DNA of 33,980 bases from the NCBI GenBank assembly GCA_016212005.1, contig JACRHP010000058.1, positions 1-33,980 on the forward strand, written 5' to 3'. Within the stretch, counting starts at the first letter, position 1; every line of letters begins with the position of its first letter. Source of the stretch: Candidatus Omnitrophota bacterium (GTDB lineage Bacteria; Omnitrophota; Gorgyraeia; Zapsychrales; Zapsychraceae). Shown in pieces: positions 15,300 through 24,295 of the stretch. The position numbers and the translations under genes were made by a program. Under the pieces are notes generated by a model. That model searched no databases. It saw only the letters and a list, made by a program, of their open reading frames with translations, and had not been told where the DNA came from.

Positions 15300-15926
15300 A
15301 TGCGGAAATCTTCTAAGTTGAATTTAACGCTGGGTATTATTGTTTTTGGTGTTTTGGTCATTGCGGGGGTAAAATATCTTGGGAAAGTTCTTATGCCGTC
15401 GCATGTGGCATCCGCGGCTATGCGGGTTAAAGGGAGTCCTGATGCGCCCATCCGGGTCACTGAATTCATCGATTTGGAATGTCCGGCATGCGCCCAGGGC
15501 GCTAAATATCTGGCACAATTTATGGCCGACCATCCTGGTTCGGTCCGTTTGGAATTGAAGTATTTCCCTTTGAAGATGCACCGTCACGGACTGGAGGTGG
15601 CCCGTTACGCCGAATGTGCCGCGCGGCAGGGCAAATTCTGGCCGTTTCACGATCTTTTGCTGGAACGTCAGGCTAACTGGAGCCGCTTGATGGATACCGC
15701 ACCCGCTTTTGCCTTGATCTCCGGTGAAGTGGGGCTTGACCCGCAACGTCTGAAGGCCTGCCTGAAAGACGCTTCCGTAGACGCGTTTATAACGCAGAAC
15801 CGACTGGAGGGAGAAAATCGTGGGGTCAAAAGCACGCCGACATATTATGTCAACGGCAAGATGGTCGTCGGTATAAATTCGCTGCAGTCGGAATTGACGC
15901 AATTGCTCAATGCCTCTCAAAAGTAA
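15300..15926 (+). CDS. DsbA-like thiol oxidoreductase (thioredoxin_4 type), membrane-anchored
   Basis: A 208-residue exported thioredoxin-fold protein. One N-terminal hydrophobic helix (about 9-27) is an anchor or signal, and the thioredoxin domain starts near residue 44 (GSPDAPIRVTEFIDLECPAC). The redox pair is C61/C64 (CPAC) and the cis-Pro loop is STPTYYVNG. A helical insert lies between. Members act as disulfide oxidants, reductants or isomerases in the periplasm. The start at 15300 has GGGAG ten bases upstream. The MauE-like gene starts 17 bases before this stop, so the two are tightly coupled. It heads the long redox operon. Confidence 0.9.
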   Translation: MRKSSKLNLTLGIIVFGVLVIAGVKYLGKVLMPSHVASAAMRVKGSPDAPIRVTEFIDLECPACAQGAKYLAQFMADHPGSVRLELKYFPLKMHRHGLEVARYAECAARQGKFWPFHDLLLERQANWSRLMDTAPAFALISGEVGLDPQRLKACLKDASVDAFITQNRLEGENRGVKSTPTYYVNGKMVVGINSLQSELTQLLNASQK

Positions 15927-16374
15927 TTTATTCATTCTGCTGCGTCTGCTGGTCGGGACGTTGTTGATCGTTTCCGGACTCGAGAAGCTCGTCAGTCCTT
16001 ATCAAAATTTTCTATATGTGATTCAAAATTACGCCCTGTTGCCTCCTTTGCTGGAAGAACTGGGCGCGCGTGCTTGGCCTTGGGCCGAATTTTTTTTGGG
16101 TGTTTTTCTCGTGCTTGGCTTCTGGTTGCGATGGGTGCTGCGGGGTGTCATGGCCACGTTTGCGGTCTTTATTTTTGTTGTCGCGCAGGCGCTGGTCAGG
16201 CACCTGCCGGTCAATGAATGTGGTTGCTTCGGCGATTTGATCAGTTTCCCGTTGCCGGTCGTTATTACCTTCGATACGGCATTGTTGGCCGTGACAGGGG
16301 TCCTGTATTATCGTCTTCGAGAGACGATCCGTTTCAGCCTGGATCAATATTTTAACGATAATGCCCGTACATGA
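15910..16374 (+). CDS. MauE/DoxX-like four-helix membrane protein
   Basis: A 154-residue integral membrane protein with four helices. The first helix pattern (LRLLVGTLLIVSGLEKLVSP) and the ECGCFG motif at 103-108 (C104, C106) are typical of MauE and related DoxX-like proteins. In methylamine dehydrogenase systems MauE works beside the disulfide protein MauD, and similar pairs accompany DsbA-like proteins elsewhere. Here it overlaps the DsbA-like gene by 17 bases, which suggests it recycles or supplies electrons to that protein. Its stop shares an ATGA with the next gene's start. Confidence 0.88.
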   Translation: MPLKSNLFILLRLLVGTLLIVSGLEKLVSPYQNFLYVIQNYALLPPLLEELGARAWPWAEFFLGVFLVLGFWLRWVLRGVMATFAVFIFVVAQALVRHLPVNECGCFGDLISFPLPVVITFDTALLAVTGVLYYRLRETIRFSLDQYFNDNART

Positions 16375-17888
16375 GACGGATTATTCTGTTAGCTTCAGCG
16401 ATATTGATATCAGCATTGTCTATGGCCCGCGCAGAGAGCAACATTAAACAGCCTAACGTGAGCGGTCAGTTTTATGCCGCGAACCCCGGGGAGTTAACTT
16501 CCCAGGTCGATCAATTCCTCCAGAAGGCCAGCGTCCGTCCCTCCGACAAACATATCCGTATTGTTATTGCCCCCCACGCGGGGTATGCGTACTCTGGCCC
16601 CGTGGCCGCTTACGGCTTTAAGGCGGCCAGCCGCGGCAATTACAAAACAGTCGTTATCCTGGCGCCGAGCCATTATTACGGGTTCGACGGTATCGCTGTC
16701 TGGCCGGAAGGAGGGTTCCAGACGCCGTTGGGGGTCGTGCCGGTCGACCAGGAGTTGGCGAAACAGTTGATGGTGCAGGACGCGAACTTTTACTCCATGC
16801 CGCCAGCCTTCGAGCGCGAACATTCGTTGGAGGTGGAGATCCCTTTCTTACAGAAAACGCTGAAGGACTTTAAAATCGTTCCGGTCATCATGGGCCAGCC
16901 GAGTTTTTCGTTGCTTGAGAAATTTGCCGGCAGTTTAAACAAAATTATCGGCGACAGGGAGGACATTCTGATCGTCGTCAGCACCGATCTGTCGCATTAT
17001 CATCCAGACGCGAAAGCCCGCGCCATGGACACGTTGACGATTGATATGGTCAAGACGCTGGATGCTGCCGGGATTTGGGAGGGTAATCAGCAGCGGGTTA
17101 AAATCGAGATGTGCGGGTTTGTCCCGACGGTGGCGGCCATTTTGTACGCCAAAGAACGCGGACTTGATGATATCGAGGTCCTGCGGTACGCCAATTCCGG
17201 GGATGTGACCGGCGAGCGCGATGCCGTGGTGGGGTACACCTCTATTGTTATTTACGATAATCCAGTCGAGGCGGACCCCCCGCCCGCAACCGTGGAATTA
17301 CAAACACAAAATGTTTCTTCACAAGGTTTTTTTACCACTCCCGAGAAACGGCATCTTCTCGATATCGCCCGCAAGACAATGGAAGAATACGTGCGTACCG
17401 GCAAGGTGCTGGAATTCCAGGAGACCAACCCTCGTTTGGGGAATGAAGAAGGGGCGTTTGTCACGATCCATAAAAATGGCCAGCTGCGCGGTTGTATCGG
17501 GAACATCATCGGCCGCGGGCCGTTGTATAAAACGGTCAGGGATATGGCGGTTGCCGCGGCGAGCAAAGATCCGCGTTTTGATCCCGTCCAGCCGCAAGAA
17601 TTAGGAGAGGTGGAGCTGGAGATATCCGTCCTGTCCAGGCCGCGGGTCGTCCAAAATATCGATGAGATCGTCCTGGGAAAGCATGGCGTGATCGTCAGCC
17701 AGGGGCCATGGCACCAGGGAATTTTCTTACCGCAAGTGGCGACGGAAACCGGCTGGACAAAAGAGGAATTCCTGCGGCAGTTATGTGCGCAGAAAGCCGG
17801 CCTGCCGGCGGACGCCTGGAAAGACCCGCAGACGAAAATCGAAATTTTTACCGCGGAAGTTTTTTCTGAAAAGGATGTCCGCGAATAA
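16371..17888 (+). CDS. Exported MEMO-AMMECR1 fusion (AmmeMemoRadiSam proteins B and A)
   Basis: A 505-residue two-domain protein. Residues 1-21 form a clear signal peptide ending ARA (likely cleavage before ESN). Residues about 25-297 are a MEMO domain, with metal-site candidates H69 (APHAGYAYSG), H101 (APSHYYG) and C248 (EMCGFVPT), plus EREHSLEVEIPFLQ and STDLSHYH. Residues about 320-500 are an AMMECR1 domain with the hallmark LRGCIG (372-377) and DPRFDPVQPQEL. In many bacteria and archaea MEMO and AMMECR1 genes sit with a radical SAM gene and the products are expected to be cytoplasmic. Here the protein is predicted to be exported and no radical SAM gene is in the window. An ATGA overlap joins it to MauE. 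Function unknown. Confidence 0.92.
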   Translation: MRRIILLASAILISALSMARAESNIKQPNVSGQFYAANPGELTSQVDQFLQKASVRPSDKHIRIVIAPHAGYAYSGPVAAYGFKAASRGNYKTVVILAPSHYYGFDGIAVWPEGGFQTPLGVVPVDQELAKQLMVQDANFYSMPPAFEREHSLEVEIPFLQKTLKDFKIVPVIMGQPSFSLLEKFAGSLNKIIGDREDILIVVSTDLSHYHPDAKARAMDTLTIDMVKTLDAAGIWEGNQQRVKIEMCGFVPTVAAILYAKERGLDDIEVLRYANSGDVTGERDAVVGYTSIVIYDNPVEADPPPATVELQTQNVSSQGFFTTPEKRHLLDIARKTMEEYVRTGKVLEFQETNPRLGNEEGAFVTIHKNGQLRGCIGNIIGRGPLYKTVRDMAVAAASKDPRFDPVQPQELGEVELEISVLSRPRVVQNIDEIVLGKHGVIVSQGPWHQGIFLPQVATETGWTKEEFLRQLCAQKAGLPADAWKDPQTKIEIFTAEVFSEKDVRE

Positions 17889-17905: not shown

Positions 17906-18511
17906 TTGCTGGTAAGCCGAATGGATAGAAAACAGGTTGGCCGTGTCGTTCTTGTCGCCGCATCCGTTTGTGTCTGGGTTTATCTGGTGTTTTGTTATCC
18001 AACGATACGTCTGTTCACCCTCCTGTTGCCGCCTGTTATCGCTCTCCATTGGAGTAAAACCATCCGCTGGCGTAATGTCTTTATCAGCATCTTCACGCTC
18101 CTGTGGTTGTTTGTTTTTCATTATGAATCAACCCGTTATTTTTATTTAACGCCGTTCGCGCAACGGGAGATGCTGAAGTTTAAATTCCTTTTCCCGCCAG
18201 CCGGCTGGATCATGTTTTTCAACGTTGATGACAGTTACAGTTATGTCGAGGTTTATGGCAAAAAAGGAGAAGCCCTCCAGCCGATTGACCCCCACGACAT
18301 CTTACGCACGCGCACGATCGGTTTCGATAATATCCACCGCAATGTCTTGAGCACCGTCTATTCGCGTGAGTTGGCCGGGCCGTTTTGCCGGTTCCTCAAG
18401 CGGCGTTTGCCGTATTACGACGATTTTGTGGTCGTTGCCGTTGAATATCCTTCGGTATCCAGGGAGCCAGACCGGAGGCTGCAGCAGGCGTTGTACCGCT
18501 GCGGCCCATAA
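17906..18511 (+). CDS. Membrane protein, possible SdpA/DUF5819-like partner of the HTTM protein
   Basis: A 201-residue protein with two or three N-terminal helices (about 12-49 and 55-72) and a soluble domain facing out. The stretch FPPAGWIMFFNVDDSYSYVE (96-115) followed by VYG, and the DPHDILRTRTIGFDNIHRNV region (128-147), recall the 'PQ.W.xFx' plus short beta domain of SdpA/DUF5819 proteins. Those are commonly encoded beside HTTM proteins, as SdpA is beside SdpB. This is pattern recall, not a search. The start is TTG 17906 with AGGAG six bases upstream; ATG 17921 is too far from that site. The HTTM gene follows after 10 bases. Confidence 0.6.
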   Translation: MLVSRMDRKQVGRVVLVAASVCVWVYLVFCYPTIRLFTLLLPPVIALHWSKTIRWRNVFISIFTLLWLFVFHYESTRYFYLTPFAQREMLKFKFLFPPAGWIMFFNVDDSYSYVEVYGKKGEALQPIDPHDILRTRTIGFDNIHRNVLSTVYSRELAGPFCRFLKRRLPYYDDFVVVAVEYPSVSREPDRRLQQALYRCGP

Positions 18512-18521
18512 GGTAAATCGC

Positions 18522-19802
18522 ATGAAAGAACTTTGGGGCAAAATATTTCTTCAGGATCGGCCGTCGATAGGCCTGTCATTTTTTCGTATTTTTGTCGCCT
18601 TGACGACCGGGTTCCATGTCCTGCCTTCGTTTGTCCATTTAGAGGACAATTATCTCCATACCGCTTTTAAAACCCTTAATTTTAATTTTTTCACTCCGCA
18701 GGTTATCGACCTTGTCCAGAAAAGCCCGGATGGAGTTGTCGTCGCCTTTGTGTGGCTATTTTGCGTTTCGTGGTTTTCTTTTTTGATCGGCTGGCGCAGC
18801 CAGATAAGTTGCATCGTAATGACGGCGGCAGGCTACTATTTCTACGCCTTGAACGCCTTTCATATCGGGACGCTCTCCTGGGACATCCTTCTGGTGACGC
18901 TGTTCTTGATGTGCCTGACGCCATACCACGGTGATTACTTTTCGCTGGATTCCTTGAGGGGGCGAGACGTTTATGCCTATAAACGCCGCCGGCCTTTTTT
19001 CCTCCAGCGGCTTTTACAGATACAAATCGCGTTCACTTATTTTTACACGGCGTTGTATAAAGTTTCCGGTGAAGGGAATTGGCTGACGGATAATCCCATT
19101 TATTACTTGATGCATTACCCGGCGGCAGGGGTGACCAAATATTTTCTGCTGCGGGATATCCTGGCGCCCCACCCGCAGCTGTGTTACGGGATCGGTATAC
19201 TTATCGTCGTTGTCGAGCTGTTGATGCCGTTCCTGCTTTTCTGCGGCCCCACGCGTGTTTCCGCGATTTACTTGGGGTTCGTTTTCCATATTATGCTGAT
19301 TTTGACGCTGGATGTGCCGGCGATTTTCTTTTTTCTTTTCCCGCCGCAGCTTTTGCTTTTTATCAATCCCGAGCGGATTGTCTCCTGGGTCGAGCGGTGG
19401 CGGCTTTACCATCAGCGTGCCAACCGCAGCCAGATTGTTTATGACGGAAAGTGCCGGTTTTGTCAAAACAGCATCGAAAAAATAAAGATCATGGATTTGT
19501 ATGATGTCCTTAATTCGGTTGACTTTCAAGCCCTGGATGATCCGGGGACTTTGCACCCGCAGTTAAGCAAGGAAAAGGCCATGAGCCAGATCCATCTGAT
19601 CGAGCCCGACGGCAAGTTCTATGGCGGGTTCGACGCTTTCCGGCGGATATGCTGGCGTTTGCCGATGTTGTATTCATTGATTCCTGTCGTTTATTTCCCC
19701 GGGATGGGGATCATCGGCCCTTGCCTGTATCGCTGGGTCGCCAGGAACCGTTATTTGTTTCATGCCAACGGGGTCTGCGCGAAGAACACGTGTTTTCGGT
19801 AA
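18522..19802 (+). CDS. HTTM (vitamin K carboxylase-like) membrane protein fused to a DCC thiol domain
   Basis: A 426-residue protein. Residues 1-300 are a horizontally transmembrane (HTTM) domain of the vitamin K-dependent carboxylase superfamily: SIGLSFFRIFVALTTGFHVL, the SWDILLVTLFLMCLTPYHGD segment, and IAFTYFYTALYKVSGEGNWL with the conserved Tyr/Lys. Residues about 303-420 are a DUF393/DCC thiol-oxidoreductase domain: IVYDGKCRFC with C311 and C314. HTTM proteins outside animals are not known to be carboxylases in general; SdpB-type members help toxin maturation. The start at 18522 has AAGG upstream; a longer frame from 18366 overlaps the previous gene. The fused DCC domain may couple thiol redox to the HTTM reaction. 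Confidence 0.82.
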   Translation: MKELWGKIFLQDRPSIGLSFFRIFVALTTGFHVLPSFVHLEDNYLHTAFKTLNFNFFTPQVIDLVQKSPDGVVVAFVWLFCVSWFSFLIGWRSQISCIVMTAAGYYFYALNAFHIGTLSWDILLVTLFLMCLTPYHGDYFSLDSLRGRDVYAYKRRRPFFLQRLLQIQIAFTYFYTALYKVSGEGNWLTDNPIYYLMHYPAAGVTKYFLLRDILAPHPQLCYGIGILIVVVELLMPFLLFCGPTRVSAIYLGFVFHIMLILTLDVPAIFFFLFPPQLLLFINPERIVSWVERWRLYHQRANRSQIVYDGKCRFCQNSIEKIKIMDLYDVLNSVDFQALDDPGTLHPQLSKEKAMSQIHLIEPDGKFYGGFDAFRRICWRLPMLYSLIPVVYFPGMGIIGPCLYRWVARNRYLFHANGVCAKNTCFR

Positions 19803-22095: not shown

Positions 22096-22132
22096 TTCCG
22101 TGAATCTATTCCTATTTACTCTCGCCGTTGTC

Positions 22133-24295
22133 ATGACCACGAACCCCGAACATCCGAACCGTTTGATCCATGAAAAAAGTCCGTATTTGCTGCAGCACGC
22201 GGATAACCCCGTTGACTGGTATCCGTGGGGACCGGAAGCATTTGAAAAGGCGAAACGGGAAGACAAGCCCATTTTTCTTTCTATCGGATATTCGTCTTGC
22301 CATTGGTGTCATGTGATGGAAGAGGAGTCTTTCGAAAATGAGGAAGTGGCGAAGCTCATCAATGCGTATTTTGTTCCCATCAAAGTCGACCGGGAAGAGC
22401 GGCCGGATATCGACCAGGTGTATATGCCCGCGGTCATGGCCATCTCCGGGCAGGGCGGCTGGCCGCTTACTGCTTTTTTGACGCCGGATCAGAAACCGTT
22501 CTGGGGAGGGACGTATTTCCCGCCGTATGCCAAGTGGGGGGCGCCTGGCCTTGTCGATGTCCTGACATCGATCCACGAGGCCTGGCAAAACAACCCCAGC
22601 CGGTTGGTGCAATCAAGCCTGACCTTGACCGCCATGCTCCAGGTGCGAACACCCCAGAAAGAGCAGCAGGAAGTAGCGGTCGAATCTATTTTATCAAAAG
22701 GATTTGAACAGTTCTCGGCGATGTATGATCCAAGTTTCGGCGGTTTTGGGACCGCGCCCAAATTTCCTTCCAGCCATAATTTATCATTTCTTTTGCGTTA
22801 CGCTAAACGGGTTCCCGACAAGATGGCGCTGACGATGGCAACGCATACCTTAAAACAGATGGCTAACGGCGGAATTTACGATCATCTCGGCGGCGGGTTC
22901 CACCGGTATTCCACGGATCAGGTCTGGCAAACCCCGCATTTTGAAAAGATGCTTTACGACCAGGCTATGCTGATCAAGACATATGCCGAGGCCTATCAGG
23001 TGACCCATGAGGCCGGCTACGCCAAAGTCGTCCGGGAAACCTGTGATTATGTCCTGCGCGACATGCAGCATCCGCGGGGAGGATTTTATTCGGCTGAAGA
23101 TGCGGATAGTCTTGATCCGGGAAAAGAAAAACCTTCTGCTAAGTCGGGGAAAGAACATAAAAAAAGAGAAGGGGCTTTTTACCTTTGGCGGTATGAGGAG
23201 ATCGTTCGTCTATTGGGCAGGGAGGACGCTGAAATTTTGAATTATTATTTTGGTGTTCAGTCCAACGGCAATGTCCAAAATGACGTTCATGGCGAATTCA
23301 CGGGAAAAAATATCTTCTACGCGGCAAGGACATTGGAAGAAACAGCACAGCATTTCCAAAAAACGCCGGAAGAAGTCGAAAAAGTTTTGCAACGCGGCCG
23401 CCGAAAACTTGGGGAACACCGCCGGAAGCGTCCGCGGCCGTTTCTGGATGACAAGATTTTGACGCATTGGAACGGGCTGATGATCTCCAGTTTGGCGCTT
23501 GCCTCGCAGGCGCTGGGAGAGCCTAAATACCGGACAGCGGCCCCAAAAGCAGCCGACTTTATCCTGCAGCATCTCCAAGATAGCGATGGGCGATTAAGGC
23601 ACCGCTACCGGGATGGCCAATCGGCCGTTATGGGGACGCTGGATGATTACGCCTTTTTTATCCACGGATTGATAGATCTCTACGAGGCGACCTTTGATGC
23701 GGTGTATCTTCGGCAGGCGCGGGAGCTGGCCGAGCAGATGATTCGTCTTTTTTGGGATCATTCAGAAGGAGGATTCTATCTGACGGCGGAGGATGCCGAA
23801 ACGCTTTTGTTTCGTTCCAAGGAGGTATATGATGGTGCCATTCCTTCCGGCAATTCCCTCGCGGCCCTTGACCTTGTGCGGTTTTATCATATTACGCTTG
23901 ATGAAAGTTTGCGGGAAAAGTTCGAGAAACTCCTGGAGATTTTCAGTTCAGAGATATCCCGGAACCCGGCTGCCCATGCTCAAATGTTGATCGCGCTCGA
24001 TTTTATGGCAGGAAATCCGCGCGAGATCGTCATTGCCGGAAAACAGGGGGATCCCCGGATCAGCGCGCTGTTGTCCGGGATCCACGGCGCATTTATCCCC
24101 AACAAAGTGGTTATCTTTAATCCTTTCCCGGAGGATAACACCGCGATCCGGGAAGTCGCGCCGTTTATCGAGAACCAGGTCTCTCTCCAGGGGGATCCTA
24201 CTGTTTATGTGTGCGAAAACCACGTTTGTCAGCGGCCCGTCCGGATCTCACAACCCGAACAGGTCGGGGAAATCTTGAAGAGGTTATTATTATGA
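22133..24295 (+). CDS. DUF255 thioredoxin-fold protein (YyaL/SPATA20-like)
   Basis: A 720-residue protein. The N-terminal DUF255 domain begins [20 protein letters not shown] and contains C56/C59 in SSCHWCHVM, the family's CxxC thioredoxin-like site. The rest (about 180-720) has the six-hairpin alpha/alpha barrel look of the family, with [37 protein letters not shown] and GGFYLTAED. Its reaction is not established. A Lys-rich insert (about 330-350) interrupts the barrel. I start at ATG 22133, where the family text begins; GTG 22100 would add a short hydrophobic lead. Neither has a clear ribosome site. It overlaps the AsmA-like gene by ATGA. Confidence 0.9.

Follow-up and report, generated by a model that had tools for sequence, protein, structure and literature searches.

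The stretch of DNA analysed here (the window; 33,980 nucleotides from a Candidatus Omnitrophota bacterium) carries an uninterrupted reading frame (16371-17888, + strand) for a 505-residue protein that is predicted to be exported and in which a MEMO domain is fused to an AMMECR1 domain. MEMO and AMMECR1 proteins occur from archaea to humans, and we know of no established reaction for either. Profile searches place the MEMO domain at residues 28-293 (16452-17249, +; PF01875, 223 bits against a cut-off of 27) and the AMMECR1 domain at residues 331-498 (17361-17864, +; PF01871, 192 bits against a cut-off of 25), and the fusion also scores above the curated cut-offs of TIGR04336, the MEMO-type AmmeMemoRadiSam protein B (276 bits, cut-off 26), and of TIGR04335, the AMMECR1-type AmmeMemoRadiSam protein A (181 bits, cut-off 99). 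The AMMECR1 assignment, originally read from the motif LRGCIG, is borne out by the profile score and by an alignment of 77 distinct fusions, all of which keep G374, C375, and G377 of this motif. An AlphaFold2 model (mean pLDDT 93.6) shows two confidently predicted domains with a flexible linker between them (residues 301-317), and its pTM of 0.61 leaves the predicted orientation of the two domains unsure; its MEMO part matches the human MEMO1 structures 3bcz and 7kq8, and its best matches in the PDB overall are human MEMO1 and AMMECR1 proteins from archaea, with extradiol dioxygenases ranking next. A search of the window's genome for further MEMO or AMMECR1 proteins returned none besides the fusion, and the fusion query has a match, single-domain matches included, in 254 of the 285 genomes compared from the phylum. 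Among public records, the nearest is an Omnitrophota metagenome-assembled genome (MAG; L002) with 88% identity to the fusion. Another record (L003) carries the title Planctomycetales but shares synteny with the window at ∼66% identity and is probably mislabelled or mis-binned, a reminder that other MAGs among the genomes compared may be mis-binned as well.

The fusion gene lies among genes for thiol-redox proteins. Directly 5′ of it are the genes for a DsbA-like thioredoxin with an N-terminal anchor (15300-15926, +; PF13462/PF01323), whose four cysteines (C61-P-A-C64, C106, and C154) are kept in 14 of 14 proteins, and for a MauE membrane protein (15910-16374, +; PF07291), whose C104-G-C106 cysteines are invariant in 15 of 15 and whose stop codon overlaps the ATG of the fusion. 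Downstream, a 201-residue protein with an N-terminal hydrophobic segment and no Pfam match (17906-18511, +), homologs of which lie 3′ of the fusion in six other loci, is followed by an HTTM-DCC1 protein (18522-19802, +, with the start inferred at 18522; PF05090 and PF04134) that joins a membrane domain to a DCC1 thiol-disulfide oxidoreductase and whose CxxC motif is present in nine of nine homologs. With the DsbA-like, MauE, and HTTM-DCC1 proteins, the fusion thus has three thiol-redox proteins encoded around it, and these may serve it. Many relatives within the window's order repeat the gene order PEPCK, DsbA-like thioredoxin, MauE, fusion, and a subset of them also has the two downstream genes. 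The linkage to Dsb-type genes to which the original prediction drew attention thus extends across this taxonomic order, but it is a local feature rather than the defining mark of the exported branch. Farther along the window (22100-24295), a DUF255/Thioredox_DsbH gene encodes a further thioredoxin-fold protein near the cluster.

The predicted export of the fusion rests on its leader (residues 1-21, MRRIILLASAILISALSMARA; 16371-16433, +), which carries positive charge ahead of a hydrophobic core, ends in ARA, and is modeled by AlphaFold2 as a helix over residues 2-18. Using a heuristic test that calls a leader from a hydrophobic stretch of 10 residues without charge close to the N terminus, we found leaders in 75 of 77 distinct fusions and in 14 of 14 DsbA proteins, compared to none of ∼116 cytoplasmic controls (0/12 PEPCK, 0/12 RsmE, 0/12 MtaB, 0/10 response regulators, and 0/70 cytoplasmic radical SAM proteins). 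Net charge is higher before than after the hydrophobic core in 85 of the 92 fusion rows, and the remaining 7 show equal values. The signal peptide ending in ARA and the export of the protein, both proposed from this one sequence, therefore agree with what its homologs predict. Some relatives (L092, L087, L198, and L293) have lipoprotein-like leaders, suggesting that the destination was kept while the type of leader changed. Both fusions that fail the test come from other phyla: L004, whose start is uncertain, and L212 (the L168 gene, in a genome from the phylum of the Ignavibacteria record), where a leaderless fusion adjoins a leaderless radical SAM gene of the group 1 type described below, which is the classical cytoplasmic arrangement.

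The MEMO domain retains a MEMO1-like site of two histidines and one cysteine. Human MEMO1 binds iron or copper through H49, H81, and C244 (PMC11081632), and alignment to 7kq8 puts the putative ligands H69 (16575-16577, +), H101 (16671-16673, +), and C248 (17112-17114, +) at these positions, as had been proposed; the two histidines are conserved in 77 of 77 fusions and the cysteine in 73, with aspartate in the other 4. By this sequence comparison, the domain would bind one iron or copper ion. The four aspartate-bearing relatives (L092, L093, L029, and L033) thereby acquire a dioxygenase-like 2-His-1-carboxylate site, whereas the window protein, with Cys248, lacks a site of this LigB type.

MEMO and AMMECR1 proteins belong to the AmmeMemoRadiSam set, whose third member is the radical SAM protein TIGR04337, and the fusion had been described as lacking this partner. 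This is true of the window only: the genome encodes a TIGR04337 protein on another contig (C24:40247-41290; 641 bits against a cut-off of 220), so that all three families are present above their curated cut-offs and a genome without the radical SAM enzyme can be rejected. The C24 enzyme is leaderless and unlinked to the fusion, and the window's genome therefore does not co-encode the set; other genomes of the phylum do so through a different radical SAM clade. The TIGR04337 proteins of the phylum divide in two, and group 1, to which the C24 enzyme belongs, scores ∼440 to 660 bits and is leaderless. Within 53 group 1 loci, we found neither linkage to the fusion nor a nearby gene for DsbA, MauE, DsbD_2, or the SpdS-like membrane protein described below, and two genomes (G012 and G219) have a group 1 enzyme without any match to the fusion, MEMO, or AMMECR1. 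These observations disfavor group 1 as a dedicated partner, and the conserved pairing of a cytoplasmic radical SAM enzyme with this protein that would have contradicted the original prediction was not seen in these loci.

Elsewhere in the phylum, the radical SAM enzymes that are linked to the fusion belong to the second part of the family and bear export signals of their own. In a tree of 147 radical SAM rows, 54 leadered enzymes fall inside one supported clade of 73, and leader state changes 4 times compared to 44 expected under shuffling. Every one of the 54 retains the CX3CX2C motif of the radical SAM superfamily; 11 have Tat-type leaders (with motifs such as SRRQFCK in L142, NRRVFLK in L091, and ISRREFLKKG in L222), three of them from the phylum of the Ignavibacteria record (L193, L194, and L192/L198), and 43 have Sec-like leaders or anchors. 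Charge predicts an N-in orientation for 11 of 11 Tat-type rows and for 40 of the 42 rows of the Sec type, the other 2 being ties. Among 20 fusion loci that had not been selected for adjacency, a leadered radical SAM gene is adjacent in 7 and fused in 1; we take the frequency from these loci because a separate set of 20 was largely picked for adjacency and is unfit for this purpose. The phylum of the Myxococcales record, a third phylum whose loci were read by tblastn, has Tat-leadered radical SAM enzymes in L289, L290, L296, L300, and L304, a row of radical SAM gene, Tat peptide gene, and leadered fusion in L293, and a row of FMN protein gene, radical SAM gene, and leadered fusion in L288. The linkage of leadered fusions to leadered radical SAM enzymes, seen in much of the phylum, places the window protein in a predicted exported branch of the AmmeMemoRadiSam set. 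The view that this branch as a whole does without a radical SAM enzyme does not hold, as the leadered clade is adjacent to the fusion or fused with it in much of the phylum.

Several members of this second group have unusual architectures or neighbors. An 849-residue protein (L252:2254-4803, on G061:C15) consists of a leader followed by radical SAM, MEMO, and AMMECR1 domains in a single chain. A second protein (L136:1743-4064, on G045:C2) has its radical SAM domain behind FMN_bind and Fer4_5 membrane domains and carries a flavinylation-like motif, SGATLT. The Tat-leadered radical SAM protein at L198:3068-4312 has an additional N-terminal CxxCH motif (CSTCH). Genes resembling type IV pilins or pseudopilins lie directly 5′ of the radical SAM-fusion pair in many members of the class (L083, L085 to L087, L090, L096, L097, L099, L101, and L102); their products are possible substrates, or these genes may simply reflect an old gene order.

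In the window's own family, the group 2 radical SAM enzyme is short and leaderless, and its locus is split: neighboring genes encode a membrane anchor and a small peptide with a Tat signal, together with two membrane proteins, one of the FMN/ferredoxin type and one with a SAM pocket. Of ∼18 short radical SAM loci in the phylum, 16 (L155, L146, L126, L149, and L153 among them) encode directly 3′ a Tat-like peptide of ∼50 to 65 residues with a C-terminal motif like KEAKYYxxxDxLAG, one further peptide ending in MAG; 16 have directly 5′ a membrane-segment reading frame that ends like AKYWK, the segment with which other TIGR04337 enzymes open; and 15 have a gene for an FMN_bind protein upstream. 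None of these three accompanies the group 1 loci, and the leadered group 2 loci have neither the Tat peptide nor a separate FMN protein, their two anchor matches looking like chance. We infer that in the short enzymes the N-terminal anchor has become a separate gene and that the Tat peptide carries the enzyme through the membrane as a hitchhiker; alternatively, the small Tat peptide may be the substrate of the radical SAM enzyme.

The distribution of the export machinery fits these leader types. TatC-positive genomes account for 25 of 27 Tat-type or split enzymes but 7 of 43 Sec-type enzymes (Fisher 2e-10, kinship ignored), an association that should be read at the level of clades because there were few independent switches between Tat and Sec. 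The TatC gene directly adjoins the radical SAM gene in three genomes (G278, G221, and G106) and is no more than ∼3 kb from it in three others (G261, G202, and G027), two of these cases having been checked with Pfam; at one of these loci (L222:1590-4602, on G278:C11), it is followed by two Tat-leadered radical SAM genes. DsbD_2, in turn, is found near the radical SAM gene in loci of the Sec type only (0/9 Tat-type loci), possibly because a cysteine-rich enzyme exported through Sec must be kept reduced outside. We found none of three components (an exported-type or split radical SAM locus, an SpdS-like protein, and TatC) in the 86%-complete assembly of the window's genome, while each of two congeners has the full trio; the absence is therefore not established and may reflect either a gap or a loss. 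Six fusion-bearing genomes of the same order (G107, G071, G121, G131, G238, and G253) have no TIGR04337 match at an E value of ≤0.001, which suggests that the fusion may work on its own in some members of the order.

The SpdS-like membrane protein, in which a PF01564 domain lies between ∼6 helices and ∼6 more, occurs repeatedly beside the exported radical SAM clade (L084, L123, L142, L252, and others). It was found near 8 of 9 Tat-type, 15 of 21 short, 14 of 31 Sec-type, and 0 of 53 group 1 loci, counts that are lower bounds because the available flanks are often short. Its glycine-rich and acidic SAM-type motifs are kept, and the presumed position of the aminopropyltransferase catalytic aspartate lacks this residue in 38 of 39 proteins. 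Judged by these motifs, it could bind or carry SAM.

Taken together, we consider it fairly probable that the fusion is an extracytoplasmic metalloenzyme of an exported AmmeMemoRadiSam branch and that its radical SAM partner is also exported in the wider branch. Made with a Sec leader, the fusion would work on the outer face of the cytoplasmic membrane, where its MEMO domain would hold one iron or copper ion via H69, H101, and C248 and, with the AMMECR1 domain, may modify an extracytoplasmic substrate by redox or radical chemistry. For the radical SAM enzyme of the wider branch, we propose three routes across the membrane, namely Tat, a Sec leader or anchor, and hitchhiking with the small Tat-signal peptide; its electrons would come from either the FMN_bind/ferredoxin membrane protein or a thiol carrier of the DsbD type. 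The fusion gene of the window's order would have parted from the radical SAM gene and come to lie beside the genes for DsbA and MauE, and these two proteins probably control the redox state of the fusion cysteines C248, C375, and C472. More tentatively, and with somewhat less than even confidence, we suggest that radical SAM chemistry itself takes place outside the cytoplasm, with the TIGR04337 clade exported alongside MEMO-AMMECR1, electrons supplied by the FMN/ferredoxin conduit or the DsbD-like carrier, and SAM supplied by the ∼12-helix SpdS-like protein. Several points count against the preferred account: the exported-type radical SAM, the SpdS-like protein, and TatC were not found in the window's own assembly; some genomes of the order have the fusion and no TIGR04337 match; few independent switches underlie the Tat/TatC association; a radical SAM enzyme exported through Sec would need its Fe-S cluster assembled outside; and we know of no SAM available outside the cytoplasm.

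Other readings of the window protein differ in how much of this picture they dispense with. The fusion could be a stand-alone exported metalloenzyme, a periplasmic non-heme iron or copper oxidoreductase matured by DsbA and MauE, with the radical SAM enzyme dispensable in the order. The order genomes G107 and G121, in which the fusion remains beside MauE (and, in G107, DsbA) and TIGR04337 has no match, are consistent with this, as are the 2-His-1-carboxylate sites created by aspartate in four relatives and the modeled fold, which resembles extradiol dioxygenases next after MEMO1. Yet most of the window's family has kept the group 2 radical SAM locus, and matches to the fusion query (P0001) and radical SAM co-occur across the phylum (235/19/7/24 in a four-way count read by eye from two presence tables; Fisher 2.6e-17, ancestry uncorrected), and we regard this reading as rather unlikely. 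Still less likely, in our judgment, is that the fusion is a client, modified before its export by the cytoplasmic group 1 enzyme on C24 in the way that sulfatase-maturing enzymes act on exported sulfatases. Such a role would suit a genome with a strong group 1 match (641 bits) and no cytoplasmic MEMO or AMMECR1 protein, but it sits poorly with the lack of linkage in the 53 group 1 loci, with G012 and G219, where group 1 has no possible MEMO or AMMECR1 client by the searches made, and with the fact that the radical SAM enzymes linked or fused to the fusion elsewhere are of the leadered type.

The predicted leader might, finally, be an artifact of a mis-called start, with translation from Met18 yielding an ordinary cytoplasmic MEMO-AMMECR1 protein. 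A methionine 6 to 12 residues ahead of the domain is present in 23 of 97 rows, the closest relatives included, and neither the Met1 nor the Met18 start is preceded by a clear ribosome-binding site. However, most homologs are leadered and lack a methionine at this place, the opposite of the leaderless homologs starting at the second methionine that would have spoken against the original prediction; the leaders differ in sequence and type and are nonetheless almost always there; and the overlap of the ATG at 16371 with the MauE stop recurs, with the same start, in L002. We therefore disfavor the Met18 start and find it highly improbable.

The preferred reading, a predicted extracytoplasmic metalloenzyme of an exported branch, sets the window protein apart from the systems that it most resembles. 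Relative to the AmmeMemoRadiSam set as such, proteins A and B are here fused and leadered and the genome's radical SAM enzyme is unlinked and leaderless, whereas the linked radical SAM enzymes of its relatives bear export signals. Human MEMO1 shares the fold and the two-His, one-Cys metal site but is intracellular and has no AMMECR1 fusion; its primary function has been described as unknown (PMC11081632). The LigB/DesB extradiol dioxygenases share the fold and, with the MEMO1-type site, the two histidine positions, and no dioxygenase activity was detected in MEMO1 (PMC11081632); their third ligand is glutamate, where the window protein has cysteine. The FMN_bind and Fer4_5 domains, whether in a protein encoded upstream or in one chain with the exported radical SAM enzyme, are also those of NosR/RnfG-type proteins, but here, unlike in these, they are linked to a radical SAM enzyme, and the literature on extracytosolic flavoproteins that we searched makes no mention of radical SAM or AMMECR1. 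For the split loci, a precedent for Tat hitchhiking is PaoABC (PMC4273604), likewise a case of a leaderless Fe-S enzyme gene beside the gene for a small Tat-signal protein, with the differences that the carrier here has ∼50 to 65 residues, that the cargo is a radical SAM enzyme, and that co-export is what the gene arrangement suggests. The phrase "exported," "secreted," or "periplasmic radical SAM" is absent from the literature searched, in which each paper naming the AmmeMemoRadiSam set mentions it once; the MEMO comparison by Burroughs and colleagues (2019) lies outside that scope and may already have noted exported forms.

Radical SAM chemistry is assumed to be confined to the cytoplasm, and export signals on the radical SAM partner are unexpected for this reason. 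If the export reading is true, an extracytoplasmic radical SAM clade would break this assumption, and both SAM and low-potential electrons would need a route across the membrane. For the MEMO and AMMECR1 families, the exported branch narrows the candidate substrates to extracytoplasmic ones, and its tight gene sets, including the three-domain fusion, offer places at which the function of these proteins can be tested.
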